Origin: Boswellia sacra
Lineage: Eukaryota; Streptophyta; Magnoliopsida; Sapindales; Burseraceae
Assembly: GCA_013180625.2 (NCBI GenBank)
Contig: SNVD02009584.1
Location: 62,001-126,000 of the forward strand
Direction of reading: 5' to 3'
DNA: 64,000 bases
Shown here: positions 18,634-62,850 of the stretch, piece by piece
Numbering within the stretch: position 1 is the stretch's first letter
How the letters are laid out: each line of letters starts with the position of its first letter
The notes under the pieces: model-generated
Database searches by the model: none
Seen by the model: only the letters and a program-made list of their open reading frames with translations
Told to the model about the DNA's origin: nothing
Position numbers and translations under genes: made by a program

Positions 18634-18750
18634 GTATGTATCCATCCTGGATCTATGACTTTTAAAATGATTTCCAGTTAAATGATATTTTCAATCTGAA
18701 ATCGTTAATTCGCATGTTGGGGCACTTTAATGGCTTGTTTAATTTTGCAG

Positions 18751-31749: not shown

Positions 31750-34239
31750 TTGAAAAGAAAAGATAACTCATCAAAAGAAACACTGTTTACAATATACACG
31801 CTTCTAAAAGAATTAAACACTTACAACCTTTAGGAGATAGGTTAAAACCACAACATACATTGAGATGTACGAAACTGAAATTTATGATGATTAAAAGTAA
31901 AATCAGTTTTATGGTGAACACTTCAAATAAATTTTATTTAAAATAAAATATTTAGCTATAAAGAGGAAGAAAGCTATAGAGATTGAAGAAGATTAAAGAA
32001 ATGTAAGTGATCCATAGAGAGATCGATGAAGGTGTTCATATGGTTAATTAATGAAGAAGGTTCTTATAAAATTAATAAGAAAAGAGAAGAAGTACTTTGA
32101 GTTGTGCCGTGCAGCAATAAGTAGAAACCCTAAAAAATGAGAGGCAGAAATGGGTTGCATTGTAAACATATGGGTGTGCACACAAAGGATAGCTGCACAT
32201 TAGAAGCTCAACAAAATCACAAAACCAATTAGCACATAGCCAGCCCGTGTACACGTCACTAGGCCAGATACAATTTTATAAGCTTCTATATCTAACCCAA
32301 TTTAAATTTTTTGTCTTGCTTCTTGGAGTTGGACTTAAATCTTTATGCTAACATTATGTTTAAAGGCCTCTTAACAATCCAATTAGAGATTGCAGAATTA
32401 ATAAACAAAAATGAACATATCATGTGAATGCAAACCCATGTCAGAATACACTTCAAACAACGAAAAATACAAAACTAAGACTTTAACTTGGAAATTGAGT
32501 CTGAACTCTAAAGCTGTGAATTTGAGAATCTTAAGTGGCATAAAAGAGGGCCAGGGGCATAAACATTTAAGTTAAAACATTATATTATAATCAAAATGAA
32601 CAAAAACATGTAAGAAATTAACAAGAATCTTTATCACCTACTAATCAAAATAAACATATCTATATGTAAGATGTTTAGTGGTGCTAGAATAAAAATACTA
32701 TATTTTGGCTTTAACGGAGAAATAGAAAAGAGAGAAGAACTCTTGATTTTAGGCCTTACCAACTACCATGCTTGAGGGATGAAAGAATATAGTAGCTAAG
32801 GTGTATCTTCACTCTTCAGGTTATTTGGGCTAAAATTAAATAAATGACAAGAATTGTAATTAGATAAGAAGCAAACAAGTATCTTGAAAACACCTTTAGT
32901 TTCTTTAAGTAATAAACACTTGCAAAAACTAAACAGGATGGGAAATACCAAGTATGTACAGAGCTTCATTGCTGATAAAAGAACTCTACTGAAAATAAAG
33001 GAAACACCAACAAAGAGGATATATCATCATTTTTCGAATCAATATTCCAAGGAAATTAACCATGAAATAATCTGTTAGGGGAAATAGATAAAATTAGCAA
33101 AGTTTAAAGTGAGAAGCAACAAATTGAACATATCAATAAAATTATGATAATGTAAGTTTCAAAAATATGCATCTGAGCACCAAAAATTTATGAAGAGAAG
33201 GGAGAATTAGCTTCAAAGTTATAGAAAGAAAGAAGCTACATCCTTTTGGGAAATAGCAAATATATGTTGTGAAATTCCCATATTAACAAAAGTCACTAAT
33301 TAAATATGATAACCGAAGTGGTATTAAAAATTGGACCGGGGTATCACATTGTGAGAGCTACTAACTACCGACATTAAAAGCAGATACAAAATCATAAACT
33401 GAATAACACAGGTCAGTTAGATAAATCTAAACTCTTTTGGTTTTTATTATAAAAGGCTATTACCTACTTTACCATCCTCTTTTGAAAAGAACTAGGTGAG
33501 TTAAGATTAGTGTAAACTTCAGCAGATTTTAATGAACTAAGAACAATTACTCTTCAATGTGACCATTCACAAGTTGGAATAGTATTGAAATAAAACTGAA
33601 GCAGTATTTTCTACGAAGCAAAAAAGAAACTTTTAATATTAAAAAGAATCATAAAACCAATCAACATTTTACTTTGATTGTTATATTAAACCTCAATAAG
33701 GTAGAAGCAATCAATAGTGAAAATTAATGTAATGCTCATCATAATCCACTTTTCCCATAAGATAAATCTTAAGACAACCAAAATATTGATTCAAGGTAAT
33801 GCACCTACATAGAGAGTCTAATGAGCTCCTGCACAAAGTGATCCAAGGACCGTCTTCCATAACCACCCTGTTAACCAAATACTGGAAAGGCAAACCTTCA
33901 ACAGGGTGGTTATGATCTCTTTCTTTTTGCTCTATCTCAATTGAGAGGGTGATAAGAGTTATATAGTGATGGCCTTTTGCAAACATGTCATTTAATGATC
34001 ACCATTATAGGGATTGCCTTATGTTATCACATCATTTTATTTCATGATCAACATATATGACCCAACCACAAGCTCCATATTGCAAAGCCGAATGGAAATT
34101 ATCCAGGTTCCCCATGAATGTTAATCGCATTTACATGTTAGAATTAAGCTTTAATTCCACATGCAAGTGAAGAACAGTGTTATTTGTACCCACCAATTAA
34201 CTGAAAACCCCATGTATAATTTAATGAAATCAAATATTG

Positions 34240-34240
<1 letters not shown>
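31750..34240. other. Unassigned AT-rich region
   Basis: No gene or element that I can name. Short frames lack motifs. It lies between fragment D and the microsatellites and is probably old repeat or true intergenic DNA. Confidence 0.45.
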
Positions 34241-34243
<3 letters not shown>

Positions 34244-34289
<46 letters not shown>

Positions 34290-34302
34290 TGTGTGTGTGT
34301 GT

Positions 34303-34356
<54 letters not shown>

Positions 34357-34367
34357 TTATCATAAAC

Positions 34368-34401
<34 letters not shown>

Positions 34402-34443
34402 TATGTGTGTGTATATATATATATAGGGTATTATCATAAACTA
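34244..34443. repeat. Duplicated compound microsatellite (CT)n(TG)n(TA)n
   Basis: Two tandem copies of the same compound order, CT run then TG run then TA run, each followed by AGGGTATTATCATAAACTA. The first is long (34244-34369) and the second shorter (34371-34443). Confidence 0.95.
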
Positions 34444-35041
34444 ACCCTAAGGTTAAGCTTAATATCACTTAGAAAGCAAGTTTGATGTTTATATTGGTGC
34501 CCCCTTTAAAGTCATAACTTTTTTATCTTCTAAGTCCAACTAATGGACTTCATTGCTTTCTAGTTTGTGTAAATTAGAAATTTTATGCAAAACAGCCCAC
34601 CTCTGTCAATTGCTTGACACGCTACAAACCATTAGCTGCATCAAGCCATAAATCATTGTAAGAAATCTTCCAACCTATTAATGTGTGACCAACTCCACCA
34701 CTTCCAGTTCCAATCATCCACTAACATTGCTAGCTCAACATCCAACCAACCAACCAATCTTAGATTTGACCATATTAACCAGCAAACACCATTTATAGCT
34801 AGCTAGGACCACCATGTAATCCAACACTGATTCGAATAGCCAACACACCTAATCAAAGGAAATGAAGAGATTAAGTTATGACATCGTTCTAACCAAATAA
34901 TCTCAGTCCCTTGTTTGTGCATTAGTCTTAGTTTTTCATTGTAAGGACTCATTCTTTCATGTGGCATTTGATCTCCAAACCCACTTTGAATTATTCCTCC
35001 AGTCGCATCACTTGGGAACTGTCAACTTTAGGAGGAAAACA
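34444..35041. other. Left flank of copia element E
   Basis: Non-coding. I see no motif beyond the AT-rich sequence before the LTR start at 35042. Confidence 0.4.
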
Positions 35042-35248
35042 TGTTATAGATTGTGTGTACTGGTGGTTTGTAGTTTGGATTTGGTTAGTTATTTACTAAG
35101 GTAATTGAGTTTGTTAGTCTTCGTAAGCAGATTATTTGTGGTCAATTGCTACTCATGTGATCTCACTTGACCTGTATATATATATGTGTTGACTTGTGTC
35201 ATTCTTATCAATTTTAGATCAACAAAATTCTTTAGAGTCTTCTCTTCA
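35042..35248 (+). repeat. Putative 5' LTR of element E
   Basis: TG...CA boundaries and a primer-binding site three bases after the end support this. A TATATATATATG region near 35176 could be the TATA box. The partner LTR is not in the window, so the left boundary is uncertain. Confidence 0.55.
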
Positions 35249-35343
35249 TTTTGGTATCAGAGCCATTGATTAACATCATGGCAGATCCTTATTTTACTGG
35301 AAATCACAAATCTTACTTGCCTTGAGAGCTTTTGATCTTGATG
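35249..35343 (+). pseudogene. Element E primer site and gag start
   Basis: TGGTATCAGAGCC is followed by an ATG at 35278 opening MADPYFTGNHKSYL, then a stop. In another frame, RAFDLD at the CACTA insertion joins GYNNWSKAL at 46974 once the CACTA element and one ATG copy are ignored. GYNNWSKAL is the typical copia gag tryptophan region. Confidence 0.75.
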
Positions 35344-35880
35344 CATTACAAGAAAAATGTTCATATTTGACGGTTTTTGACCGTCAAATATGTATATATT
35401 TGGCGGTCTTGAAAACGCCACCAATGGCACTGCCAAATATGGTCAATTTAACATATTTGGCAGTTTTATGACCGCCAAATATGCATTCGACTATACTTGA
35501 CGGTTTTTGGCCGTCAAGTATAAATAGTTTTAGAAAATTAAAAAAATATATACTTGACAGTTTTTAGCGCCAAATATGCACCTAACTATACTTGGCGGTT
35601 TTTGACCGCCAAGTTTAATAGGTTTAAAAATTAAAAAATATATACTTGACAGTTTTTGGCCGCCAAGTATAAATAGTTTTAAAAAATTAAAAAAATATAT
35701 ACTTGACAGTTTTTAGCGCCAAATATGCACCTAACTATACTTGGCGGTTTTTGACCGCCAAGTTTAATAGGTTTAAAAATTAAAAAATATATACTTGACA
35801 GTTTTTGGCCGCCAAGTATAATAGTTTCAAAAATTAAAAAAAATATACTTGAAAGTTTTTAACCGCCAAGTATTTAAAAG
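35344..35880. repeat. CACTA left terminal inverted repeat and subterminal repeats
   Basis: The terminus CATTACAAG is followed by about ten copies of a short palindromic motif in both orientations (TTGACGG/CCGTCAA, TTGGCGG/CCGCCAA), spaced by AAAATTAAAAA-type linkers. A 149-bp block beginning TACTTGACAGTTTTTAGCG is duplicated at 35551 and 35700. In En/Spm such subterminal motifs bind the TNPA-type protein. Confidence 0.85.
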
Positions 35881-35881
35881 A

Positions 35882-35917
<36 letters not shown>

Positions 35918-36059
35918 GTATCATTGTTAAATAATACAATTTTATAGCATTCTTTGTCCATACACTAATCTCATTGTAACATTTTTTACTAAGAAGCTCT
36001 ACAAAGGAATATTTCTGAACCCAGAAAAGGTGTAGAAAGTAATGGTCTCACTTGTTATG

Positions 36060-36499
36060 ACTGTATTGATGTCTCCCCAGACAAAATTCCCTTGATTTTG
36101 TTCAGTCTTTCGACATATGTCACTTCTTTTGGATCTGCTTCTGGAAAATTTGTGTTAGTAGAAAAATCTGTCATTTGCACATCCTCTGCAGCAGTAGAAT
36201 TTTCGTTTTGTGCAGCAGCTGGATCACTAGCTACTGGTTGTGCTGACACTAAAGGTTGAGACTTAGGTACAGGAAGGTGATCTCTCACATTCAAGAGAAA
36301 AGCTTGGTGCTCATTCTCCACAAGATCAAAGGCTACTTGGAATGCCAGTAATGCTTCATCCTTATTTTCAGAACGGAGAAGCTTTTCTAATATACTCACA
36401 ACACCTTCAAGTTCATCCAGGAACATTAGACACTGGCAAATACTCAAATAATCTGGAGAAGGCAGCTTTTGGTATACTTTAACAAGAAGACGAAGCACC
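36060..36499 (-). pseudogene. RPN2: Captured exon of 26S proteasome subunit RPN2 (PSMD1)
   Basis: One exon of the gene for the proteasome lid/base scaffold subunit RPN2, which normally has about 1000 residues. The acceptor TTCTTCCTACAG at 36500 on the minus strand leads into VLRLLVKVYQKLPSPDYLSI, then FDLVENEHQAFLLNVRDHL, an acidic/low-complexity linker with AAEDVQMTDF, and EVTYVERLNKIKGILSGETS. About 147 codons are open without a stop. The end at ACA|GTCATA could be a donor; the next RPN2 exon, which should hold the first PC repeats, is absent, as is the preceding exon. The gene's intron/exon border is kept, so DNA rather than mRNA was captured. Confidence 0.92.
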
Positions 36500-38107
36500 T
36501 GTAGGAAGAACCAATTTTTATCACACCACTTCAGCATGACATCTTCTAGAACATTCCACCAAATTCAGGCCGTTCATTTATAAATAATTTCTTCTTTGAA
36601 CCATTGGTTCAAATTTAAATTCATAAAGGTATGTCATGCTTTCAACAACAAACAAAACATACCAAGCACTGGTATATGTTACTACATAATTTTAGTAATC
36701 TACCACTAGAATCCTACTCGATAAACTGAAAATAAGACATTAGTAGATAATAACAACAAGAAAAATGAAAATCCATGATACAAAAATTAAGAGGATACAA
36801 AAAGGATGAAGAAAGTGTGAAAGCATGGATGTTAGAAATGTTAGCTTCAGTACAATCAAGTCAACTGTTTTCTTATAATTATCTGTGCAAAATTGACAAG
36901 CTAGGATATTCCTAATTACAATAAGGACACAGTACAGTGTGAAAGCATAGCTGGTTCATCACAATTCACGAAGGAGACAATTTTTCTTTTTTAAACCCAG
37001 AAACCCTCTACCTTCCCCTTGTCCAACGAGTTCTAAATTAAGTGTTACATCCAAAACCTACAAGCTTGGCAGCCACCAAACATATGAGACATATACATGT
37101 CCCAAGTAGGTGGCCAAGGTGATTTGAACTCTGGCATATTATTTGAGCTTATTCAGTAGGTGAATATGCATAAAACAATATAAAAATACAAAAACTATCT
37201 AGCCAAAACCATCAAATGGGTAAAAGAAGAAACATAATGTCAATATAAAAAAGCCATTGGAAGCTACAGATTGGCATCCAAGAAAGGTAAATTCGAATTA
37301 CACATAAGAAAACAGTTTTCAATGGCTTGGAAAAAAATAGGCACAAGATAACAGATGCAACTTGGAATACAAAACCTGGCTTAGATTAACTTTCTATATT
37401 TTCAGGACATTATCTACCAAATGTAGCTCATCAAAAACAACTAGACCACCGAAAACCTATTAACTCCTAAGTAATTTACAGTAACTCAAAATAATTTCGG
37501 AACTTATGTATTATTGATAAAAATGTTCAGACACCTTTGAAAGCAGGAAGCATAATATGAGGGCCACACATTTAGGATCATAAGCTTTATAAGGGGGTTG
37601 GGATCCAACTCATGTAAAAATTAAGGGAATATGCTGCAGCCTTGCCATCTCCTGGCCATGAAGCACACATTTTTTTACTCAACCATCTTCCTTTACCATT
37701 GATCAGTTGTCGGACCATAAAACAAAACACCACTAAATTATTCATGAGAAGCACCAATAATTAGAAATAAACATTTAAGTCTAATCGCAACATGTGGACA
37801 ATTTCAACTTAGAAGAATGTTTGAATTTATGAGTACTGCTCCAACAACAAGTCAAAAGGCAACAATAATCATGAAGGTAGCAATTATAACATAAACAGGA
37901 TAGCAATAAAGCATAAAATTACTTAAAAAAGCTCAACCATAATCACTTTAATAATATTTATTTAACAAAAATATAATTAAAAGAGCAATGAAAATAGTTG
38001 CAAATAGGACCCAAATTATGCAAATAGTTTCTTGAAAAGGAATAACAAGCATGAAATGACATGGTAGTCAATTGACTACCAAAATATTGTTAGCATAAGC
38101 TAAATAC
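36500..38107. other. CACTA interior between RPN2 and UTP10 pieces
   Basis: AT-rich with no exon I can recognise on either strand. It is probably flanking intron DNA of the captured genes and filler. Confidence 0.45.
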
Positions 38108-38270
38108 CTCTGTTCCATATTTTATGGCACCGAAAGACTATGGCTCAATGTGCTGCGCAAAGAAGTCACAGACAAAGCAAGGAAATTTTTGTCTGATAAT
38201 ATAAACCTTTTTTGTCGAACCATCAAGCCTGAAAGATCATCAAGAAAATGACTCCAAATTGCAGTGTTTC
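38108..38270 (-). pseudogene. UTP10-like exon 5 of 5 (nonsense near the end)
   Basis: Acceptor ATGACAG joins in phase 1 to exon 4, then NTAIWSHFLDDLSGLMVRQK and RFILSDKNFLAL, ending SVP, a TAA where Lys is expected, then NMEQR and the donor GTATTT. Confidence 0.8.
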
Positions 38271-38391
38271 CTGTCATTAACCCATTCAATACATAACAAT
38301 ACTGCACAGTCTTCTTGCTATATAAAAATATATAATGAAAATAAGTGTAACCGCTATGGACATGCAAGATCCAGCATTACAGTGAGAATAC

Positions 38392-38474
38392 CATTTTTCT
38401 TGCTAGAAGTGTCAACACGGCGCCATAATGGCATATAGCCCTTCAACACAGCCCATGGTAGCTAATCTTACATC
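38392..38474 (-). pseudogene. UTP10-like exon 4 of 5 (one-base insertion)
   Basis: Acceptor TTTTTAG, then DVRLATMGCVEGLY. An extra base shifts the frame, which then reads LWRRVDTSSKKN up to the donor GTATTC. Confidence 0.8.
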
Positions 38475-38676
38475 CTAAAAAGAGAGACAAAATATCACTC
38501 GGAACAAAACCACGGTACCTCTTCAAACCCAAGACTAAATAAGAAATTAAAAAAACAACACTTAGAAAAATATAATTAGGCTACTGCATTTTGAAAGAAA
38601 GTTTCAGAAAGACTACCAAGAGCACAAACACAATCACCAACAAGAAATAGGTCGAAGTGAAAGAAAAATGCAGTAC

Positions 38677-38812
38677 CTGATTATCACTAGCCAATGGAAC
38701 AAGCACTGAAGGGAATTCAGCCAGAAGTTCAAACAACAATCTATCATCTGACTGAGAACAAAAAAAGCAAAACAGTGGAGACTTTCCATTTGGACAGCAA
38801 CAGGTTTATCTG
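38677..38812 (-). pseudogene. UTP10-like exon 3 of 5 (one-base deletion)
   Basis: Acceptor TTTAGCAG, then KPVAVQMESLHCFAF. A T is missing from a T run, after which the conserved CSQSDDRLLFELLAEFPSVL continues in a shifted frame to SDNQ and the donor GTACTG. Confidence 0.82.
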
Positions 38813-39392
38813 CTAAACAAAGTTTCATGACATGTTATTAAGTTATTTTCAAAAAACTGTTTATAGAAAGATGACAAGAAATTGGATTCTGTAATTATTA
38901 AAATTTAGGAACATTTCACCTCATAGGAGTAATTTGAAATCAGTTTTTTGATGTCTACCAAATTTCATACACTAAAGTTGAACGAAAATAATTTTCTTTT
39001 TCTAGTCTGTATTTCACCAATAAACAAAACAGCAGGTTTCAAAAATTTTAGGAGACATTTAACATGTCCTTATAAAAATTTTACTATGACATGAAATAAT
39101 TAACAAAGCTTATTTTGTGCCTTATGAAAAGAGATCCAAGAACAAGTTAATCTTGTGAACACTTAAACAAGAAATATGAAAAGCAAGCAAAATTGAATGT
39201 ATATATCATTTGTCAAAAGCCCATCATCAGAGTTCAAAAGAAATGATCTTATTTCAACAGATTTTGACTCAAATTGTTTCGGACGACAATTACCAGAAAA
39301 GAGTAGAAAAATAGGTACACTCAAGAGTGTTAAATTGATAAAGAGAAGAAAATAATAGAAGAGTTAGCATGATCAGAAGCAAAAATAAACAC

Positions 39393-39542
39393 CTTCTTCT
39401 GTAAAAAACCTTGACAGGAAACAAGCAAGAAAGACTTTGCATTTTGAAACAAGGTAGTGGCAATGTTCCTTGAAACAATGTTTCAAATGCGAGTTTGAAA
39501 AAAAGACAAACAAGTCTTGAATTTTGCTAGACCATCCTTCAT
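39393..39542 (-). pseudogene. UTP10-like exon 2 of 5
   Basis: Acceptor CATGATGCAG, then EGWSSKIQDLFVFFSNSHLK and HCFKEHCHYLVSKCK, ending SRFFTEE before the donor GTGTTT. Open throughout. Confidence 0.8.
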
Positions 39543-39662
39543 CTGCATCATGAAAAGTTGCCATATTCAACAATAATAAGAATATAGAAGGGAACAAATA
39601 AAAACAACCAAAGCAATCTTAGAAGGCGATAGAAAAGCAATGAATGAAGGAAGAGCACCGAC

Positions 39663-39767
39663 CAGCAAGATATTTGTAGGCATTGTCAAATAAACTGCCT
39701 CAAGCAACCTCCAAAATGTGCAAACTAGGATTTTTATATTTGAAGCCTCAATGTCAGTATCAAACAG
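39663..39767 (-). pseudogene. UTP10-like exon 1 of 5
   Basis: Minus strand, acceptor AAAGGTCAG, then LFDTDIEASNIKILVCTFWR and LLEAVYLTMPTNILL, donor GTCGGT. Open throughout. Confidence 0.75.
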
Positions 39768-40052
39768 CTGACCTTTCCAGGAACATATCAAACAACTTTC
39801 TCGCTCATTAATTAATTTAGCTTCATAGAAGCTAGCTAGACCTGGAATTAATAACTACTAGAATTCCAACTTAAAAAATTTTATAACCGCACGTATCTAT
39901 GCTCCAATTGCATCTATGTGGTTGCCATATGGATTCAAATCTGCGATCTTAGTTAAATATCGTTGGTTTAATGTGATTGAAATTTTTTTACATTTTTTAA
40001 AATATAAATTTATAGGTCTGAGCTTAATTATAATATTTAAGACTCTAATCAG

Positions 40053-40089
<37 letters not shown>

Positions 40090-40416
40090 ACTCACTCATG
40101 CGCACATCCCTTTCTGAGGGTTAAAAATGTGTGTCTACGAGAACACATTTTTTATGGTGGGTAAAGATGGTCCCAACAATCTCGACAAAACAATCAAATG
40201 AGCATTTTACCAAATGGTTTCCAAATTCAAGGAAACTTTATCTAAGATTCTAACACAAGACGAGAAATGATGAGAATTAAAAACCATTAACAACAAATCC
40301 GTTTTAAACTCCAGATAACTGATTTTTGCAACATTTAATCAACACATTCATATGAACAAGTTCTGGAACTAAAACAAAGACAACCGCAAATCAATAAACT
40401 GTGAAATAGAACTTGC
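39768..40416. other. CACTA interior with TA repeat
   Basis: No exon recognised. A TA microsatellite lies at about 40056-40086. Confidence 0.5.
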
Positions 40417-40528
40417 CTGTTGTTTGATAATGCTAAGCTTACTACTTGCATAACGCGGTGCCAGCACACAATTCACAGATGAATGCTTGAAGAACTTCTT
40501 GGTTTCTTCATCATGCGTCGCCATCACT
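40417..40528 (-). pseudogene. PLDdelta: Captured exon of phospholipase D delta
   Basis: The minus strand reads VMATHDEETKKFFKHSSVNC then VLAPRYASSKLSIIKQQ, which I recognise as the region just upstream of the first HKD motif of the C2-type phospholipase D delta subclass, a plasma-membrane enzyme making phosphatidic acid. The HKD motif itself belongs to the following exon and is not present. The acceptor is likely GCAAG at 40529. The end is CAACAG followed by GCAAGT, so this would be a GC-AG intron, or a GT that mutated to GC. The 37 codons are open. The upstream frame runs on through an ATG at 40557, so the exact left border is uncertain. Confidence 0.78.
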
Positions 40529-40848
40529 CTTGCCTGAACCACCAAATCCCACTTCATGTCATAACTCCCAAGTACTTATTCACGCTTGGTAACAAACCAT
40601 TCACCCAATAACAAGTAACAACACTTACAATGATCAATCCAATTGACTTATTAACCAGTTTCATTAGTTGACATCATGTGTTTCAATTGACTTATTAACC
40701 AGTTTCATTTCTCTGGCTAGGCAAGAAAATTAGGTGGCATGAAACTTTGAACATTAAAGACAAAAAGAGAGCTCAAAAACTGGAATCAAAACCACTTTCA
40801 AGAGAAGTATGCAATCAGTATCTCATAGTATTGACAAGAGATACTCAC

Positions 40849-40996
40849 TTGGTATGTTATCAACATCAAGCCTCATGATCTTTCCTAGCAACGATTTCTT
40901 ATTTTGGGAAAAGTTGTAAGGATCACCCACACCACCACCATCTCCCATCATGAAATATAAATACCCATTAGCAGGTCTGTTATTTAACCACCACCC
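40849..40996 (-). pseudogene. Captured exon of a HIPL (glucose/sorbosone dehydrogenase-like) gene
   Basis: Minus-strand exon with acceptor CTGGCAG and donor GTGAGT. It reads [20 protein letters not shown], then [20 protein letters not shown], the strongly conserved beta-propeller core of plant HIPL (hedgehog-interacting-protein-like) proteins, which are secreted or GPI-anchored and related to PQQ-type sugar dehydrogenases. The 49 codons are open. The neighbouring exons of the source gene are not present. The N-terminal dozen residues (GWWLNNRPA) fit the family less well and may be divergent. Confidence 0.78.
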
Positions 40997-41091
40997 CTGC
41001 CAGATAAATCAACATACAAAACTCAGCGAATATAGTTTGTGGGCAAAAATTAGAGCATGCAAGAAATAACCATGGAAAACTATTGATCTAC

Positions 41092-41207
41092 CTAAAATCT
41101 GTTGATGGATCCTTTCCTTGCTAACCCATTTCCTTCCACTCCTCCGATATTAGACCACATAGTTCTTCTTCCAGAAAAGCAACATTCCACAAAGCTCTCA
41201 AAGCTTC
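41092..41207 (-). pseudogene. Captured exon of an ELMO/CED-12 domain gene, with stop
   Basis: Minus-strand exon with acceptor CCTTTAG and donor GTAGAT. It reads EALRALWNVAFLEEELCGLI, then SEEWKEMG, a TAG stop where Trp is expected, then QGKDPSTDF. This is the opening of the ELMO domain found in plant ELMO-domain proteins (animal relatives act in Rac signalling). The nonsense codon makes it a dead fragment if translated in this frame. Confidence 0.82.
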
Positions 41208-42060
41208 CTAAAGGGAAGATACAATAACACACAACGATAAGAAAGAGAAACTTCATACTGCAATAGCAGAGATCCAACTATTTAGAAAAGTTGTTTACAA
41301 CGAACAAGGAGCTAAAACAAAGACCAACATAGGACCATCAGTACAAGAAGTAAAATGCAAATAAGGAGTAAAATGCAAAACGTAGTACACATTTGATTCA
41401 AACCTCTATTGCTCCACACAATAAGAAAACCATTACTTGTATAGTCTCTTTTTCAACTTCAAATGTTATGCAATCCTAATATTCCCAAATACAAATAAAA
41501 CTCTTGAAATACACTGTTATTACAGCACTATTTTCCTTTTAAATGAAATTAATTTTATGATGATCAGCCTCCTTTTTATTATTCCGTAGTAAAAGATGGT
41601 GCCTAGTTAATAGTCTTTAAGGGGAAACCTTAAAATGATAAGCAAATAATATTGATCGAGTATCTGGGAACCTAATAACAAGTATCAATGTATCTCGAGA
41701 TTGTCAGACTAGTAAAAGCCAAATCATTCTATCTTCATGGGTTTATTCATCTATGAATTGCCACAGTAACTAAAAAAAACTACATCCAGAGCTTTTTCTG
41801 GAATCTGCAATAGCTAAAACCAAATTCAAATTCATTGCATAAACACAAAAATAATAAATAAATAATTAAATAATTAAAGACCCTTGAGTAAACACCAAAA
41901 TCATTTAAACTATAGTATTCTATCTTGTAAATCAACATCACAAACTACTATATGGATGCATTGCCTAATTAAAAGTCATTAGCATCAGATTCTAGGTTTC
42001 TGTTTTTAACAATTATTACACAGCCAATAATTGTTTAACAATAATTGTCTATAGTGAAGG
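41208..42060. other. CACTA interior, likely ELMO intron side
   Basis: AT-rich, no exon recognised. Confidence 0.4.
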
Positions 42061-42063
42061 TAG

Positions 42064-42267
42064 AGGGCATATTTGGATTCTCAGTAATCTAAAACTCAAA
42101 AGGATGAAAGAGTTTTACATTATCCCATTTTTAGCGTCATTAGATTCCTGAGTTTAAAAAATATATTAGGCCTACAAGGGGGAGGTTTCAATTTCAATTT
42201 CCTATTCCCCCAAGGACAAAACCGTGAATCAAACGGTAGACGACAAAACCGCAAACCAAGCGGCCCT
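42064..42267. mobile_element. MITE (Tourist/hAT-like) inside the CACTA element
   Basis: A 204-bp non-coding segment with imperfect inverted ends (AGGGCATATTTGGATTC versus, reversed, AGGGCCGCTTGGTTTGC) flanked by TAG on both sides (42061-42063, 42268-42270). A 3-bp duplication points to the PIF/Harbinger (Tourist) group; the end sequence would also fit hAT. It landed in the captured or filler DNA. Confidence 0.6.
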
Positions 42268-43806
42268 TAGGTTTTGTTGAAATATTGTCTTATGCCACCT
42301 CATCATTACACTACAACCCACCAACCCCCTCAGCTTAAACACTTCACAGCCATTATCATTATGCATTACAGCCAGAAATTAATGGCTCTTTAACATGTAA
42401 GACCTTCATGCATCTCCAAGAAAAGCAAAATCTCAAGTAACCATGTCATTGTTTGTGAATCTTTTTAGAGCCTTTTCTGGCCCATAAAACTCCATTTGTG
42501 GTATCTTTGATTTTCTTCCTAATTAAAAAATATATACGTACAATATTTATTCATTAATATATCATGTCATGCAAGAAATGAGGAAGGTATACAACCACTT
42601 ATAAATATCCAGGTTTGTGTGTGATCTTTCTCCTCGTGACAGCAATGTATAAATAGTTCTTATGGCAATCCAACTCAAATATTCGATTAATAAATTACCA
42701 ATTAATCAAGATAATATACAACTCAATGCTGACATTATCAGTTGATGTAGCAAATGCACTACCCTAGTATCGCTAACATAAAAATCAGAGACTACTAAAA
42801 ACAATGAAGATTTTTCGGTTTTGATGGTTTCACTAGGCTTTTAAAGAAGTGTTACAACTTTTGAAATTATTTCAGGGATACATACTAATAATATTCTATA
42901 TAAATAAATAAGGCCTAGAATATTCATATATATAGTGGCATCTAAACCTAGATAGCTAGTATGAGCAGCATATTAGAGCTCTCTAATTGGGATCCCATGT
43001 TGATAGATCCAAATGGTAAGTATTCTTACAAGCATTAAATTAAACCACATAAAATATAATAATCCAAATTCCCAAGTGAAGCATTTTATCCTGTGAATTA
43101 AAACGATAACAAAGATGACAATAACTGACCAATTATTACATTATTATAGCTTACTATATATAATATACTTAAATCTTTTTTTCTATAATATATATAATCT
43201 TAATTTTATTCGCTATATAAACAATACATTTCGATGATCAGTAGAATTACTCGAGTTGAATATGAAAGCAAATTTGAATATCATGCTTACAACATATAAT
43301 ATACAAAGACAGTTCACTGCAGAACAAAACGGCCAAAGATGTTGTTGACATAACCTGCATTTGTGCAACATAGAATAATGATTGTGTTTATGCCTTACAA
43401 AGTATATAAAGCAGAAGCTATACAAGTAACACGATAGATCCATACCAATCTAAATTCCATCACATATACTGATAATAAAAACAAGAAGAAAAAAACATAC
43501 AAACATCACATCAAATCACATGAATTAACATGACTATATAACATGTTACTAAAGTAGTATATAGGGCAAAGTGATTCTGAAGGTTCAGAATCACCACTTT
43601 GGGTTACAAAATTTTATAGCTAGTACTGTCTGTCTACCACATCAACCATTGTCTCCTTCTAACTGAGTCTTTACACTATCTCTTTAATGTCTTTTGTAAT
43701 ATAATAAAATGCCCATTACGGAATTGATAATATTAGCCATCCCTGCCGGTATCTTTATGTGTGTATAAATATATATTCCCTCAAAGTTAAACTTTAATGT
43801 GTAAAT

Positions 43807-43848
<42 letters not shown>

Positions 43849-44236
43849 AATTAAAATGCATGTGTTAGGCAAACTGTGTTAAGGAACATATTACTCAGTC
43901 CATATACAGAGAAGTGCACATTTTCTAGAGAGAGAATTTAATTTTCTCAAGTTCAAACCTGATAATTATTCAATATATGTGTATAATTTTTTCACGATAT
44001 AGATATCAGCAATAAAAATAAAGGCATGAATTGTTTTTGACTTTTTTTTTTAAGATATGAATTGGTTTCAATTTAGAAATGGATAACATTAATTAAATGT
44101 GTTTTTCATTTATCTTTGATCATAAAATCAAATAAGAGCAAAGTTAAAAATTCACGTTTTGTATTTAAATATTAAAAAAGATTTAGTTAAAAGATGTGAA
44201 CCCTAGGTTCGTATTGCCCTTTATTAAAGTTTTTTA
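42268..44236. other. CACTA interior, mostly unassigned
   Basis: A plus-strand exon-like piece starts at ATG 42961 (MSSILELSNWDPM) and ends at a GTAAGT donor at about 43016. A minus-strand piece after a GTGCAACAAATGCAG-like acceptor near 43365 is open for 13 codons. I recognise neither. An AT microsatellite lies at 43809-43846. Confidence 0.35.
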
Positions 44237-44287
44237 TTAGGCAGCGGCAGCAGGAGCACACACTTTGGGGTCACATTGCTCAAAACA
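44237..44287 (-). pseudogene. Possible captured 3' terminal exon, Cys-rich tail
   Basis: On the minus strand an acceptor-like GCTCAG is followed by CFEQCDPKVCAPAAAA, a stop, and within 20 bases AATAAA. This looks like the last exon of a gene for a small Cys-containing protein, but 17 codons are too few to name it. Confidence 0.3.
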
Positions 44288-45437
44288 CTGAGCATTTCAG
44301 TTACTCGTCATCCATATGGTAACTGCTGATAATGCACAGCCTAAGCCTTGATGCGATTGGCAGAGAATAAATTAAAAACTATAACTTATAGAAGCCATGT
44401 CCTCCATATCATCCTCCACATGTACATAACACAAAAAAGAAGAAGCAAACAGTAACCCCTAATATGAACAAGTATTGCAATTTAAGAACTAAACTCTAGT
44501 ATAAGATACGTTAAAAAAATAGAAGAATCAAAAAATCAATCTAGCTACATCCTACTCCAACACGAAGGTACGTATAGATTGAAAGAAGAGATAGTCACAA
44601 ACAATGCTAGCTAAACCAAATTTCTATACAGGAGCAATCGAATTAGGTATATGTATGTATGTAGCCGCCAGTGACACACTGTGTGGAAAATAATTGGACT
44701 CGTTGTCAATCATCTCTCTCTCTATCATTCTTTCTTTCTCTTTTTTAAGACATGACACCATGTTTGATAAATGGTACCCCATGGCCGTGGAATGCCAGTT
44801 TTGTGTCGTTCGATTTTTCAAAAATTTGAGGTCAATTCATATCATTTTCTACAATTTAATATGGAATATTCAATTGACATCGTTAATTTGTTTATTAATT
44901 GAAACCCTTTATGGATTCACTTTCTATAGTACAATTTATTCATATAAATGATATCGGTTATCTTTTTAATTAGTTGTTAATTAGGTCAAGATCGTTTAAA
45001 ATTCCTGTACAGATTAATTATCAAGTATTCGTGCTCAAAGCTTAAACCACTGAAGTTGTACAATAAAATAAGATCAAGGACACAGTAAGATTAAAAAATA
45101 AAATTAAAAAAATCTAAATTGAGTTATATATATAGGAAACTAAAATCTTATAAAGAGAAAAAAAGATAGATAAAGCTTAGGCAGGCATAGAGTTCGCGTT
45201 TCACGCCATCGACTACTATTCATATAAAAAAACTATACAAACAATTCTACATAGTCTAATATAGTATAATTTTTCATTTAATCAATGATTTTATCACATA
45301 ATCTATTATTGGTTTTTTTATTTATAATAGTATTATATATTATAGGTTTTCTTATTTATAATAGTATTTTATGATGTTACAACTTATACGAAGTTAATTA
45401 CATAGATTGTTTATATTCATATTCATATTAAAATTAG

Positions 45438-45473
<36 letters not shown>

Positions 45474-46240
45474 CTTCCTATGACCAATTGGTGGATCAGA
45501 TATTGTGTGAAGGATCTTGATTATTTCAAGATGGAAACTATGTAAGTAATTAATATGTGTTATTTGAGAGTGTTTAAATGATTGGCCAAAATTGATAAAA
45601 TTAAAGTTTTTATCTTAAACAAATAATTAAGCAGTACTTAAATAAAATACTTTATATGGATTGGAAAACGATTTTAAGATTATCATCTGGAAATTTTACT
45701 AGAAATAATTAAATATTAATTAGAAAGTGTTATCAGATTTTTTCAACAGATATTCTCGTAAAAGGCATTATCACAGCTCTCTGGTCATTTTATCCACTGT
45801 ACAAAGTGTTATCAGATATTCTCTTAAGAATATTGTAGAAGTTGGAAGAGTTAGAGAGAAGATTATAATAACTAAAAAAAGATTTACATATCAACATCCT
45901 TTTTCTTATCTATTATGTCCTTGTTTTGTACCCGCCAATCTCCGGAAGCCCACTAATAATTCTTACCTAACCTAACCCTAAAAGCAAAAAGTAACTTTAA
46001 CCCTAATTTATACAAAATTAATAATCAACTTATCGTTTAAGCTCCTATCCCAAAGTTTTGGCTCCAAATTTCTAGTGATCCAATGCAGCTCCCCAATATC
46101 CTAGCTTTATATAAAATCAATTGATCAACTACATTATTAATAATCAGAACCCCATAACAGATCCACTTATTGAACATAACTCAGTCATCCCATTTGCTCA
46201 CGGACAAAAATTTTTAAAGAACAAGCTTTCAGAAGTTTTA
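44288..46240. other. CACTA interior, unassigned, with CA repeat
   Basis: No recognised exon. (CA)n at 45440-45470. The region 45720-45930 has an open plus-strand frame that I cannot place. Confidence 0.4.
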
Positions 46241-46271
46241 AGTTAACAAAAATTTTCAAGAAAGAAATTAC

Positions 46272-46620
46272 CTCTGAGAAACAGATGTTTTATCGATGGT
46301 AGTAAGCGAAGTGACGGGTTGTTTCGATGCACAGGCTTGAGTGAGAAGGGTAGCATTGCCGTCACAAGGGAACCGATGATGGAGTTGACCTGATAGCTGG
46401 CAATAATGGAGTAGAACCACGAGTGAGGATGGTGGAGGCGTCCTGTTTTGATGCTTGGGTGAAGAAGATGATTTTCGAACAAATTGAGACTCCAGAGTTG
46501 ACGCCGTTGGACGACGGCTTGGTGAGTGGGTATGGCAGAATAAAGCGGGGGTCCTGGAGGAGCACGGTGCTTGGCGAGTGGTTAGAAGTTTAGGTTTGCC
46601 GTTTAGGGATTAGGGTTAAT
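46272..46620 (-). pseudogene. Candidate 5' exon near the right end of the CACTA element
   Basis: A patch clearly richer in G/C than its neighbours that ends on the minus strand at CTCAGAG followed by GTAATT, a good donor. Two frames are open over much of it, one reading TPPPSSLVVLLHYCQLSGQL and another NSGVSICSKIIFFTQASKQD. Upstream on the minus strand is an AT-rich stretch. The pattern suits a first exon with its promoter, taken from a nuclear gene I cannot identify. It lies upstream, in transcription direction, of all the other captured exons. Confidence 0.4.
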
Positions 46621-46859
46621 CGAAACATCTTTTTCCTTATATGGTATATGAAATTTCCAGAAAATCCCCATCTATTAAGACTTGTCAAAATTGTCCCTGT
46701 AAATTACATAAGAATCCATATATTCTATAAATTTTCAAATACTTTATAATACGGAGTAAGACAAAAAGTTTTATTACTGTATATGCTTGTCCACATACTT
46801 GGCACTATCTAAAAATGTGAGAAATATATAATAAAGTCAAAACAGTGAGTGACAAATAT

Positions 46860-46970
46860 GAACAAAATATGGGTTTAACTTTTATATTAAGGTTATATTT
46901 CTCACTTTTTTAAAAAACCGCCAAATAAAAAAAATTAAAAGTGATAAATATATGAAAAATTCTTATAGTG
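46860..46970. repeat. CACTA right terminal inverted repeat
   Basis: Ends ATTCTTATAGTG, preceded by an AAACCGCCAAAT subterminal motif matching those at the left end. ATG follows at 46971-46973. Confidence 0.85.
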
Positions 46971-46973
46971 ATG

Positions 46974-47707
46974 GTTATAATAACTGGAGCAAAGCCTTGT
47001 CTATCACCAATTAGTGTCTCAAGAAATAATGTTGAGTCCTCTGTTGTTGTTACTCAAATTAATCCTGTTTATCTTAACTGGACTCAAATTGATCAACTTA
47101 TACTTGGTTGGTTAATGTCTTCAATCACTAAATCTATGTTTGGCTATATTGTTTGATGCAAAACCTGAATGGAAGTTTAGGTTACATTGGAGAAATTGTT
47201 TCATACTCAGTGTAATAGATCAATGCACATCAAGCATCAACTTCAAACCATAAAAGAAAGGCTCTATGTCAATTTTTGATTACTTTCTCAAAACGAAAGA
47301 ATATGCAGATATGTTGCTTGCTATAGGAGTTACTATTATAGATAATGATATGGTAACCTTCTTAATATCTCTCATATTGATTCTAATACTATTTCCTCTT
47401 TGTTGCCTAATAAATCACTTTTTCTTCACAAAATTTTACATGTACCTGCCTTAACCAAAAATCTACTAAGTGTTTCTCAATTCACCAAAGATAATAATGT
47501 ATTCATTGAATTCCATTCTGATTTTTGTGCGATTAAGGACAAGGAAACCAAACTACCATTACTATAAGGCACACTTAATCAAGGTTTATACCAACTTGCT
47601 GCAAGTCCATTGTCTTTTACATATCTCAGTTTAGTTGTCAAATCTTATGTATCTTCTCTTATGCCTTCATCTACTTTTTCTTCTTGGAATCAAGTGTGTT
47701 TGTCTAG
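46974..47707 (+). pseudogene. Element E gag to pre-integrase segment
   Basis: Gag pieces: YNNWSKAL, then NPVYLNWTQIDQLILGWLMS, then LKTKEYADMLLAIG. Near 47420 the protease/pre-integrase portion appears: HKILHVPALTKNLLSVSQFT, then NQGLYQLAASPL. Large parts of gag and the protease active site are missing, so element E was decayed or internally deleted apart from the later insertions. Confidence 0.78.
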
Positions 47708-48897
47708 TGTTAGTAATATGAGTTAGAAACATGTCCTAAGAGTATGTATATTTTTCTGCAATATATAAACATTATTATTATAAATGAATAAAAGTTATTA
47801 TTTATAAATTACTCATGGTGTGACTGTATCAATGAGTAAAGGCTCCAGAGCTTGTACATTGATAAAGTTTTTATGTATATGAGATATATCAGAGACACCC
47901 AACCTTATTATAGCTCAAAATTAGTTCACAACCTATAAACAAAAATTGGGTGCTTTATTTGAACAAGATTGTTATGTCGTTTGTCTTTAACAGGGAAACA
48001 TTTGAAGTAGAGACTTCAGGACAAAAACACTTGTGCATTATGAATGCATTGAACACAAACCACGTAGAATTATCCATATGATAGAAAAACCATGACCAAA
48101 TCTCAATTTCTATACTTGAGCACTAAAGCATTCCTACCTTCATCTTGAGTAAATAGTGTACCTCTAGTATACAGGCTATGGTCTTTAACTAGAAAAAAAA
48201 GTGAGATCTAAAAGAGTAAGGTTAATACCTCGGTTAGTTGGAATTGTAAGATCTGTATGCTAGTAGACACTATACCATAGATATGGAATTCATGACTCTA
48301 GAAGGATTGCAAAATACCTTCTTCATGATTTTACAAGGTTTTATTTGAGAGAATCTTACCTAAGTGTTTAATGAAAGTTGTTTATTAAACTGAGATATAT
48401 TAAGATAAATCTCAACTCATTTAAATGGTGTAAAACTGGTATCAAGGGTTCAAAATGTAATTAGAGGGGCAATATGATAAACCATACTTAGCTCTAATTA
48501 TTGGTATTCAATGAAGGATAATTATATAAACCTGCTCCTCAATGACTAGGGATGAAAGGAATAATTTAATCATATTAAATTATTAAGTTTTCTATAAAGA
48601 GTATTTAACTCAAGAGTGCAGCTTGGGACTAATAATGGAATGGACCAAAGTAAATAAGTTGGACACATTACAATTATAACAAAGTACTGGTTCAAACTTA
48701 TTGAAGCTTGTAATTAATATGTCCATCAAGGTCTCCTAAGTAACTAATTAAATCATCTGAACATGAGACTAAAATATTAAAAATAATTATTTAATTCAAT
48801 TGACAATTTATTGAGAATAAAATTTTATATATTAAAAAAATGTGAAATTGTAAATGTGCTGATTATTTAATTAAAAGAGTTTAATTAAATAAATAAG

Positions 48898-50741
48898 TGT
48901 AAACGAGGCTTTAATCATGCCAGAGCGTTAGCAATTACGACACTGTGTCAAAGTCTCTAGCGAGACTTAAGGAAACATAAAAGAGTCATAGGCACGTCTG
49001 AAGAAATAGAGTACCCACTCAATTATTCAATTGAGAATTAATGGGGGCAATCCGACCCTTTGCTTCAGAACTTAAACTACCCTCATCCCTTCAGAGATGG
49101 GTTCGAAAAGTTAGGCACGAGTCATTTGACTTGCCCCTATCAAGATCCGACCTCCACTAGGGTATACCAGATAAGAATATTTCATATTGACATACAATCT
49201 ACTTTGAATTGTTTATTTTATGCACACATTGTTCATTTTATCTTCTTTAGTCATGTGAGGTGATTATTCAATTAAATTATATATTTATCCAAAGAAAGAG
49301 GGAGAAAAATAGATTACATTTCCATCATACATAGGGGAAAGGGAATAGGATTACATTAATTACTCTTTGATAATAAAATGATACTTCAAATAAAATATTC
49401 CATACATTCATTCATAATAAAATCATATATTTAAATGTAAACAACTAATTTGAAACTCGATAAATAGTGAATTCCTTGCCACCATATGTGAGTCTATTCA
49501 ATGTTTGTCAAACCTCTTTCAAGGCACTATACAATAATTCCATTACACTTCTAATCATGGTATATTCATACATTCTTCATATTAATCACTAAAGCTATAA
49601 TCTAGAATCGTGGCATTCTAGCCTAGATTTGATAATTCTATCATGGCATTCTAGCTTATAGCTATTGTAATATAATTCATATTAATTCATAACATCATGG
49701 CATTTCTAGCCTAACATGGTTATCATGGCATGTTCTAGCCTAATTCAAGCAATCAAAGTTAATCAAAGCTATTCTAGCTTAATCACGCATTTAAAGAGGC
49801 AACATGATAATTCTTACCTAGTTTATACTATTTCCTAGCATGCATTAAAGCAATTATAAGTCTTCCTAGCATGACTCTAATCATGTGTTGCTAAGCATGC
49901 TTCTAAACATTCTCAAAGAGATTAAATTCCTAAACATGGTTTAAATGAAGAATGGAAACCGGACTTACCTTGACACGCTGATGCACCTCACAAAACAAAT
50001 GAAAGGTTAAGCAATTTATAAAATCCTAGCATACTTCTATGCATCAAAATAAATCATAATCATGCTTATTCTAAGCCTAATTTATCCTAAACATCCCTAA
50101 TTCTAAGCATGAAAATAAAAGGAATAAATAGGAAGGAGAAGAGAAATATGCTCTCAGAACGTACCCTTTATAGGTTTAAAGCAATATAAAACCCCAAAAT
50201 AATAATTAAAATAGAGAAGACTTCTCGAATTCCCGAGCGTGTCTTCAAGAGGGAGAAGAAAGGATTTCTAGATGTCCCCTCAAAGTGTGCCCAAGGTGCG
50301 CTTATATAGCCTTTTCTTGGAGTGAAAAAATGATAAAAAAACCAATGTGAGATTCATATGAATAGTATCGATTGAACAGTATCAGGTGAATAGTGCATCG
50401 ACTGTTTGATCGTTGGCCCTTTCTATTTTACAATTTTGTAATGCAGTCTCTTTTTACCTTTGTCTATTTAATTGCTCATAACTTTTTGAGTTCAACTCTA
50501 ATGTGTGATCCGTAAATTTATACGAAAACTAGACATCCATAACGTAATGGTAAATAACTCATCATCAGATTCCTCATAGATTAACTTCTATGATTTTTTG
50601 AAGTCACATAACAATTTTTGAGACCTTTCATCGATTCCCTCTTACCATTCCTTTCTTGGCCTCCAAGGGTATTTTGGTCATTTCTATTACTCAACATTTA
50701 TCTTTATTTCTTCATCAAGCCTCAAAAGTTCAGTATCTATA
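48898..50741 (-). repeat. 3' LTR of element G
   Basis: Colinear with 58854-60661. It contains several short direct repeats of CATGGCATTCTAGCC. Confidence 0.9.
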
Positions 50742-58853: not shown

Positions 58854-60661
58854 TGTGAATGGGTATTCATCCCGTTAGAGCATTTGTGACCACGACAATG
58901 TGCGAAACTTAAGAGAATACTAACGAGCCATGGGCATATATGAAGAAATGGAGTCGCTACCCAATTATTCAATTAGGAATGAATTGAGGCAATCTGATCC
59001 TTCATTTCGAGACCTAAACTACCTCCATCCCTTAAGAGATGGGTTCGAAAAGTTAGGTACAAGTCATTCGACTTGCCCGGATCAAGATCCAACCTCCACT
59101 TGGGTATACCAAATAAGAATATTTCATATTGACATATAGTCCACTTAGGGTTATTCATTTTTCTTCTTTAATAATGTGAGATGATTATTCAATCAAATTA
59201 TATATCCATCCAAAGAAACAAGGAGGAGAATAGATTACATTTCCATTATAAATGAGGGAAAGGGAAGAGGATTACATTAATTGCTCTTTGATAATAAAAT
59301 GATATTTCAAATAAAATAGTCCATACATTCATTCATAATAAAATCATATATTTGAATGTAAACAATTAATTTGAAACTCGATAAATAATTAATTCCTCAT
59401 CACCATATGTGAGTCTATTCAATATTTATCAAGCCTCTTTCATGGCATTATACAATCATTTCATTATCCTTCTAATCATGGTAATTTCATACATTCATTC
59501 ATATTAGTCACTAAATCCATAATCTAGAATTATGGCACTCTAGCTTAGATTTGATAATTCAATCATGGCATTCTAGCCTATAGCTATTCTAGCATATTTC
59601 ATATTAATTCATAGCATCATGGCATTTCTAGCCTAAACATGGTTATCATGGCATGTTCTAGCCTAATTCTAGCAACCAAAGTTAATCAAAGCTATTCTAG
59701 CTTAATCACGCATTTAAAGGGGCAACATGATAATTCTTATATAGTTTATGCTATGTTCTAGCATGCATCAAAGCAATTATAAGTCCTCCTAGCATGACTC
59801 TAATCATGGGTTGCTAAGCATGCTTCTAAGCATTCATAAAGAGATTAGATTCCTAAACATGGTTTAAATGAAGAATGGAAACTGGACTTATCTTGACATG
59901 CTGATGCACCTCACAAAACAAATGAAAGGTTAAGCAATTCATAAAATCCTAGCATACTTCTATGCATCAAAATAAATCCTAATCATGCTTATTCTAAGCC
60001 TAATTTATTCTAAACATGCCTAATTCTAAGCATGAAAATAAAAGGATGAAATAGGAAGGAGAAGAGAATTATGCTCTCAGAATGTACCCTTTCTAAGTTT
60101 AGAGCAATATAAAATACCCAAAAAAAATTAAAATAGAAAAGACTTCTCAAATTCTCGAGCATGTCTTCAAGAGGGAGAAGAAAGGATTTCTAGATGTCCC
60201 CTCAAAGTGTGCCCATGGTGTGCTTATATAGGCTTTTTTTGGAGTGAAAAAGTGATTAAAAAAACCTATGTGGGATTCAGATGAACAGTTCCATGTAAAC
60301 AACACTAGGTGAACAGTTCACCGGCTGTTTGCTGCCAGCCCATCCTATTTTACAATTTTACAATATAGTCCCTTCTGACCTTTATCTATTCAATTACTCA
60401 TAACTTTTTGACTTCAATTATATTTGTAATCAGTAAATTTAGCCAAAAACTAGACTTTTGTAGCCTCGTAACCATATATGACTCATCATCAGATTCCTCA
60501 TGGATTAATTTCTATGACTTTTTGAAGTCTATTAGTTTTAGAGACCTTTCATCGATTCCTGTCACCTTCCCTTTCTTGGCCTCCAAGGGTATTTTGGTCA
60601 TTTATATTACTGAAAATTCATCTGCATTTCTTCATCAAGCCTCAAAAGTTCAGTGTCTACA
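58854..60661 (-). repeat. 5' LTR of element G
   Basis: Colinear with 48898-50741 and followed by ATAAG at 60662-60666. Confidence 0.9.
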
Positions 60662-60881: not shown

Positions 60882-62050
60882 ATTACAAGTCCATAATTAC
60901 AGTTTAACAAGAAAGCAAGAGAGATATATAACATACAAAGGTTTCACTCAAAACCTTAATAGATCTATAGGAACAAAAATGTGAACAGTACCATTGCCTT
61001 GAAATTTGTGCCAATATCAAAAACTCCTTCCCTAAGCTAAAACGTAGAAGTTTCTAGAGCACCATTGGGATCAAGTTTGAGCTGCCTAGACCTTTCCTAA
61101 ACTTGTTTATTTTGTGTTCTCAGGTAAAATTCAATCAAGATAAACTCTCACAAGTTTTGTTCAGTTGATCTTCAGGCATACTTAGAAATCAAAGTGGTGA
61201 GAAAGCACAAAAATTTTTGAAAGGTTGTATTCGCTAGATCCTAGTCCCGGAGTATTGTTTTCGCTTTATTGATCCAGTTAGTTCTAAGTCTAGGATCCTC
61301 GACTATCATAATGTGGCATAGGAGATTAGCCTACTCTAATGTGAATGTCTTGTCCCACATTGGCAAAATAACTTAGTCGTCCTTGTAAATTTGCTAAGAA
61401 TTTTCATTTCTATGACTTTTTTCAATTTGATAAAAAATGTCATAACACATATACTAGTTTCACTCAAAACTAGTATTACAAGTCCATAATTACAGTTTAA
61501 CAAGAAAGCAAGAGAGATATATAACATACAAAGGTTTCACTCAAAACCTTAATAGATCTATAGGAACAAAAATGTGAACAGTACCATTGCCTTGAAATTT
61601 GTGCCAATATCAAAAACTCATTCCCTAAGCTAAAACGTAGAAGTTTCTAGAGCACCATTGGGATCAAGTTTGAGCTGCCTAGACCTTTCCTAAACTTGTT
61701 TATTTTGTGTTCTCAGGTAAAATTCAATCAAGATAAACTCTCACAAGTTTTGTTCAGTTGATCTTCAGGCATACTTAGAAATCAAAGTGGCAAGAAAGCA
61801 CAAAAATTTTTGAAAGGTTGTATTCGCTAGATCCTAGTCCCGGAGTATTGTTTTCGCTTTATTGATCTAATCAGTTCTAAGTCTAGGATCCTAGAATATT
61901 ATAATGTGGCATAGGAGATTAGCCTACTCTAATGTGAATGTATTGTCCCACGTTGGCAAAATAACTTAGTCGTCCTTGTAAATTTGCTAAGAATTTTCAT
62001 TTCTGTGACTTTTTTCAATTTGATAAAAAATGTCATAACACATATACTAG
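60882..62050. repeat. 593-bp tandem duplication in LTR sequence F
   Basis: Two nearly identical copies starting ATTACAAGTCCATAATTAC at 60882 and 61475. By eye they differ at about ten positions. The junction between copies carries an extra TTTCACTCAAAAC segment that also occurs within each unit. Confidence 0.93.
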
Positions 62051-62850
62051 TGCATTGTCTTAATCTCATGCTCCCCTTGAACTTGTTTTTATAGATGTTT
62101 AGGGGCCATCACCAATGGTTTCAACTGATGGCTATAGATGTTACCTATTATTTTAGTAAATTCTATTGAATTTTTCCCTTAAGAACAAATTTTGAAGTTG
62201 CTATTATTTTTAAACAATTTTTAGCTTATGTTAAGAGACAATTTAACACAAAACTAAAATTTCTTTTAGACCTTTGTCATCTTATCTACAACCATTAGGA
62301 ATTACATTTAGACATCCTTGTCCCCACATTTACCAGCAAAATTTGTCAGTTATATGAAAATGCAGGTCTATAGTCGAAATAGGCTTAACACTGTTAGCTC
62401 AGGCTTCCATGCTTCTCAAATTCTAGTGGCATGCATTTGTAATAGGAGTTTATTTTCTTAATAGGCTTCCTATAGTATCCTTGTCTTTCAAGACACTAAA
62501 TCAAACACTTTTTAACTCCTCTCTTGATTATACCTTTCACAAGACCTTCAGTTGTGCTTGTTATCCCAACCTTAGGCCATACAATAAACATAAACTTTTA
62601 TTCCATTCTTCCAAATATGTGTTTATAGGTTACGATCCTTCTCATAAAGGTATTATGTTTGGATAGTTCAGGGAGAATTTATATTTCAAAGAGTGTTACT
62701 TTCCATGAATGTGAATTTCCATTTGCTTATGGATTTTCTTCTACAATTGCTTCTTCTAATTCTTCCTTAGTTGTTGCCTCTTCTAGTGCAAATTGGTATA
62801 TACCCTCAATTAATATTTCTACAGTTGCTTTAGTTCCTTTCTAACTAAAA
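62051..62850 (+). pseudogene. Element E integrase remnant
   Basis: Near 62070-62300 the plus strand reads SHAPLELV-, GHHQWFQ- and LKNKF-like integrase core pieces in shifting frames. From 62481 the C-terminal part is clear: FSCACYPNLRPYNKHKLLF, KYVFIGYDPSHKGIM, then DSSGRIYISKSVTFHECEFP. Multiple stops. The catalytic acidic triad cannot be read in one frame. Confidence 0.78.

Follow-up and report, generated by a model that had tools for sequence, protein, structure and literature searches.

A Pack-CACTA element of Boswellia sacra carrying fragments of five or more genes, and relatives that may record how it grew

The mechanism by which DNA transposons pick up pieces of genes is still debated. 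Capture of several genes by CACTA elements is already known: Tgm-Express1, the CACTA element of the soybean wp allele, is described as packing fragments of five genes into 5.7 kb (PMC1947982), and the Pack-CACTAs of maize are reported often to contain several loci (PMC8903248). In the model put forward for the Arabidopsis Pack-CACTA, neighbouring insertions fuse (Catoni 2019, as presented in PMC8903248 and PMC13317346). Repair has also been named: abortive gap repair as the mechanism of CACTA capture in Chenopodium (PMC8978399). For wheat chromosome 3B, 140 CACTA capture events are reported, and the repair of double-strand breaks where CACTAs insert is cited as giving rise to gene duplicates (PMC4290129). 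Here we analysed a 64-kb stretch of Boswellia sacra contig SNVD02009584.1 (hereafter the window), in which an initial annotation had proposed a Pack-CACTA element at 35344-46970 holding exons from five or more unrelated genes. This proposal is supported, and all five genes are present; its description as a rich example is tempered by the soybean and maize elements cited above. The value of the element lies in its legible capture history. One genome holds a before, a putative source and an after state for one capture as well as source-type loci for five others, so that the junctions can test fusion against gap repair.

The interval 35344-46970 is a single CACTA-type insertion of 11.6 kb in decayed copia-like sequence. 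Direct reading of the sequence gave copies of an ATG target site duplication (TSD) at 35341-35343 and 46971-46973, exactly where the annotation had placed them. The left terminal inverted repeat (TIR) is CATTACAAGAAAAATG (35344-35359, plus strand) and has T instead of C as its third base; the end thus starts with CATTA (CATTACAAG), one change from CACTA. With this correction to the left end, the CACTA-type ends of the annotation are confirmed. The left end could be read in 12 non-allelic relatives; it starts with CACTA in 11 of them and with CATTA in C6846. A right terminal region found family-wide in comparisons with relatives (46211-46970, minus strand) includes the right TIR, which reads CACTATAAGAATTTTTC inward (46954-46970); the right end is CACTATAAG, and its counterpart in the other allele, C3822, is CACTACAAG. 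The left subterminal repeat array (35360-35880, plus strand) spans ~520 bp; it is made up of two 149-bp units along with shorter repeats and is based on the hairpin motif TTGGCGGTTTTTGACCGCCAA, of which the right end has a single copy (46913-46922). TSDs of 3 bp were found in all three non-allelic elements with both ends read, namely ATG in the window, AAT at C5011 and ACA at C4776.

No transposase domain was detected in Pfam scans of the element in all six frames of its two halves (12 scans), in agreement with the annotation. Matches of its open reading frames (ORFs) to ChAPs, UL42 and EGF2_RECK were below cut-off and were disregarded, and no Rfam feature reached the gathering score within 34000-48500. 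With host gene fragments between its TIRs, sources elsewhere in the genome and no transposase domain, the element belongs to the Pack-CACTAs, non-autonomous transposons of the CACTA (En/Spm) type. It shares this organization, TIR-bounded with captured gene DNA and no transposase, with the Pack-CACTA and Pack-TYPE elements described from Arabidopsis, maize and rice (PMC8903248). It also resembles the En/Spm-type Tpn1 family of Ipomoea nil in its conserved termini, subterminal repeats, interior of captured host DNA and 3-bp TSDs; the likeness is one of layout, and the Tpn1 subterminal repeats are given as 122 and 104 bp (PMC5105172). Deleting the insert and one ATG reconstructs an empty site with the open stretch AFDLDGYNNWSKALSITN, which by eye is gag-like (copia-type), and a match of the right flank to copia Pol_BBD (E=1.6e-4) falls short of Pfam's cut-off. 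Judged from these two resemblances, the element therefore probably inserted into a decayed retrotransposon.

The captured genes all lie on one strand. Their order on the minus strand, taken from the right, is ELMO, HIPL, PLD-delta, UTP10/At3g06530-like and RPN2, and together with a 361-bp unassigned block they occupy 35976-41338, about half of the element. The RPN2 block (26S proteasome subunit; 35976-37132, minus strand) contains an exon at 36061-36498 and non-coding sequence and was identified by Pfam RPN2_N (2e-17) and PDB 8amz (2.2e-55). The UTP10/At3g06530-like block (37143-39774, minus strand) holds five exons with introns, corresponding in order to residues 740-955 of a Pistacia homologue, and two of its ORFs match Pfam ARM_At3g06530 (2e-13 and 2e-7). 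Exons c and d have frameshifts, exon e a stop, and exon b has lost its apparent acceptor AG; exon c is uninterrupted in the other allele. The 361-bp block at 39764-40124 matches C4852 at 89%, its alignment overlapping the UTP10 block at their junction. The C4852 counterpart lacks part of an AT repeat.

Parts of two PLD-delta exons and the intervening intron make up the block at 40129-40644 (minus strand), identified by a PDB PLD-alpha1 match (6e-6) and 86% identity to Citrus PLD-delta. The HIPL block (glucose/sorbosone dehydrogenase-like; 40658-40977, minus strand) was below cut-off in Pfam alone (GSDH, E=0.037), and its identity was settled by a 97% match to the GSDH-containing locus C3076. 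The ELMO-domain block (40986-41338, minus strand) matches Pfam ELMO_CED12 (1.2e-9) and has a stop where the C6835 locus encodes Trp. Of 1118 matches in the protein search that gave the Citrus protein, the 120 best included neither HIPL nor ELMO, so this search supports PLD only. The top-scoring protein match, considered as a chimeric homologue, was rejected, its high score coming from a repeated RPN2 segment. Tgm-Express1 and the Boswellia element are both non-autonomous CACTAs whose captured pieces, introns as well as exons, derive from five unrelated host genes. However, Tgm-Express1 measures 5.7 kb, lies in an F3H intron and has spliced transcripts (PMC1947982), whereas the present element measures 11.6 kb, has other donors and is known from DNA alone; its source-type loci and relatives have been located. 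In the Chenopodium CACTAs, host gene fragments likewise lie within the transposon, but the account gives one captured gene per element, beside a transposase domain, and contains no before/source/after series (PMC8978399).

Searching the window's own assembly (638.6 Mb) yielded a source-type locus for each of the five genes, each on a different contig: C6287 for RPN2 (93%), C951 for UTP10 (94% with gaps, 96% without), C3975 as the best PLD-delta match (96%), C3076 for HIPL and C6835 for ELMO (95%). Identities to the captured blocks were 93-97%, non-coding parts included. At contig level the donors are therefore not neighbours, whereas adjacent donors would, according to the annotation, have refuted its interpretation; the RPN2 contig is 70.6 kb long. 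The RPN2 and UTP10 protein matches point to Sapindales, and in Pistacia atlantica the two proteins are listed on contigs that differ in length, consistent with unlinked donors. Residues 72-655 of a maple homologue are encoded in order within the 4.1 kb fetched from C6287, and residues 1-1545 across the 20 kb fetched from C951. The GSDH profile at C3076 and the ELMO profile at C6835 extend past the captured piece. Further PLD-delta loci are C4173 (95%) and C812 (93% and 87%); C3975 and C4173 both carry stops and are therefore candidate sources only. As the annotation had suggested, non-coding sequence was compared with the donors and also matches: the UTP10 block is 97% identical to its source locus in exons (638/659) and 96% outside them (1882/1962). 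The blocks from the five contigs are copies of genomic DNA, not of mRNA.

The element shares its ancestry with independently inserted relatives. The insertion at C5011:241261-246971 has a TSD of AAT, both ends as in the window element and parts of RPN2, UTP10, PLD and HIPL, and at C4776 both ends again occur, with a TSD of ACA; the two ends thus recur together elsewhere, as the annotation had required. Of 14 loci examined, 12 have a CACTA-type end abutting different flanking DNA, one is the allele, and one (C1212) has no CACTA-type end within the stretch searched. Past movement is evident in the 12 of 13 non-allelic members whose TIR stands directly against distinct flanks. All copy counts are lower bounds, as 40 of 105 candidates were scored in the RPN2-segment search and 40 of 1665 in the right-half search. 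A tree of the RPN2 segment comprised the window, the source gene and 14 fetched relatives, the allele included, taken from the 20 of 45 matches that had been cut out as loci. It was nearly star-like around the source gene, with support values of 0.01-0.99, and we therefore do not claim an order for the left-half captures.

The copy on C6069 and C3822 was rejected as an independent transposition. Its flanks match those of the window at 95-99%, and it thus represents one and the same insertion, either duplicated or present on another haplotype. This other allele (C6069:6718) departs from the window at 40566, inside the PLD block, into sequence that by eye resembles the end of a long terminal repeat retrotransposon. 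The C5011 element has in addition captured part of a universal stress protein gene (Usp, E=3e-22), which is oriented the same way and lies at 5714-6568 of the fetched stretch.

The junctions of the left-half gene chain contain short fillers: 10 bp between RPN2 and UTP10 (37133-37142), about 4 bp between the C4852 block and PLD, 13 bp between PLD and HIPL (40645-40657) and 8 bp between HIPL and ELMO. The UTP10 and C4852 blocks instead overlap by about 2 bp. The PLD/HIPL filler is templated, belonging to a perfect 26-bp copy (40640-40665) of the HIPL-block sequence 40684-40709, and the native PLD and HIPL loci have CAATT in common at this point. The corresponding junction in C5011 has nearly the same structure. 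The junction looks as if a template had been switched and had then slipped. The PLD segment of C3615 and C853 extends 38 bp beyond the window's PLD border and may represent a second capture of PLD-delta.

Nested growth is most readable in the right half. In C2014 and C5970, position 46211 is joined to about 42036, and likewise in C1806 with 8 unmatched bases. C1225 and C36 possess the next layer, with 46147 joined to 42887 and CC between; they read GGGTTC-CC-TAGTATG where the window and C3822 have a 3.26-kb block, X2 (42888-46147). A putative source, C655, matches X2 at 90% (42883-44891, then 46109-46147), and the similarity stops at both X2 junctions. The block-free element and C655 overlap by 5 bp (TAGTA) at one junction and 1 bp (C) at the other, and CC (about 2 bp) was lost. 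No TSD surrounds X2 in the window or at C655, and X2 was therefore rejected as a transposon insertion. One capture is thus available before (C1225, C36), at its putative source (C655) and after (the window and the other allele). We infer that the change ran in this direction. Were C1225 and C36 deletion derivatives, their breakpoints would have to match the ends of the C655 similarity by chance. The 1.2 kb missing at C655 (44892-46108) may have been a third insertion; alternatively, C655 may have lost it.

A filler inside a TIR element, a small gap and microhomology are also features of animal Pack-TIRs formed by gap filling, two thirds of which show 1-36 bp of microhomology at one end or at both (PMC8277862). 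In that account, however, 57% are found no more than 15 kb from the parent copy and almost all exist as single copies, whereas here we see a multi-copy plant family with captures from separate contigs. The sequence at 41357-42036 is common to the elements C2014, C5970, C1806 and C1225. A segment of ~507 bp (41357-41863) also occurs alone, with nearly fixed borders, at no fewer than about 20 other genome sites.

Several explanations of these structures were weighed. A normal cluster of chromosomal genes, or one chimeric gene of the host, that two CACTA ends flank by chance would agree with the common orientation and closeness of the five fragments, but this reading has next to no probability: the source-type loci on five contigs refute it at contig level, several fragments and the PLD/HIPL junction recur in the complete insertion C5011, and the ELMO and UTP10 frames are broken as detailed above. 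Hardly more credible is an element turned functional chimeric gene with its RPN2 exon under selection. This exon is open across 438 bp, the captured genes share a strand, and exons of Tgm-Express1 are reported to be spliced into transcripts (PMC1947982). Yet its differences from C6287 are spread nearly evenly over codon positions 1, 2 and 3 (4/5/7, 146 sites each), the RPN2 frames are broken in the relatives C3380, C3518, C146 and C6846, and the acceptor of UTP10 exon b is lost. In a search confined to proteins of comparable length, none of the 120 best of 156 matches exceeded 89% identity; where most of the query was covered, identity reached at most 81%. The captured coding sequence looks neutral, the codon-position differences being as expected without strong selection. 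Any chimeric transcription would presumably proceed from the right-hand end.

Fusion, in which two related CACTA insertions flanking a gene drop their inner ends and mobilise together with the intervening DNA, deserves more weight, although we regard it as unlikely. Besides being the published model for the Arabidopsis Pack-CACTA (PMC8903248, PMC13317346) and the mechanism to which Pack-TYPE capture is ascribed, it was also used to interpret the two successive internal insertions of a maize Pack-PIF cluster (PMC8903248). Moreover, the two halves that the ELMO block links resemble C5011 on the left and C1225 on the right, the similarity to the latter ending at 41357. At X2, in contrast, the block-free element is interrupted at one point with microhomology and a loss of ~2 bp, and no remnant of an inner TIR or subterminal repeat was seen; this capture looks like internal gap filling. 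The PLD/HIPL junction contains copied filler. For those junctions, these features favour template-switching repair over fusion of neighbouring elements.

We consider it probable that much of the interior of the Pack-CACTA was built up by gap-repair-type capture inside resident elements, which then spread. Breaks or stalled forks would arise inside a resident CACTA element, and repair would copy stretches of unrelated loci, joined via microhomology and short fillers. The enlarged elements would then transpose and diversify, moving only with transposase supplied from elsewhere. Gap repair has already been proposed for the Chenopodium CACTA and is therefore not a new idea for CACTA capture; in the open-access literature, and with these terms only, we found no paper devoted to gap-repair or template-switch capture in plant CACTA elements. 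Several points weigh against the gap-repair account. The before/source/after series is complete for the X2 capture only, and its putative source lacks 1.2 kb of the block as well as any Pfam domain in the three frames scanned. No element without the five-gene chain was found at the insertion point of that chain, which may have been captured by another route. The ELMO block, sitting between two element halves, is also compatible with fusion, and the window copy may no longer be mobile, given its CATTA left end.

A broader view, to which we incline by a narrow margin, is that Pack-CACTAs grow by serial nested template-switching repair in a resident element and that the family forms a readable record of it. 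The record would comprise two, perhaps three, right-half steps (46211/about 42036, then 46147/42887, while 44891/46109 may be one more or reflect sequence lost from C655), a five-gene left chain with a slipped template at PLD/HIPL, and possibly the second PLD-delta capture in C3615 and C853.

Other features lie outside the element in the window. Judged by eye, an ORF at 10541-11479 resembles a cysteine-rich receptor-like kinase ectodomain and another at 18709-19059 a kinase C-terminus; the two are separated by an ORF for a copia-like polyprotein (13515-15662). Two 1.8-kb direct repeats (48960-50739 and 58902-60659) are 87% identical, and a near-tandem 577-bp duplication (60882-61458 and 61475-62051) is 98% identical.

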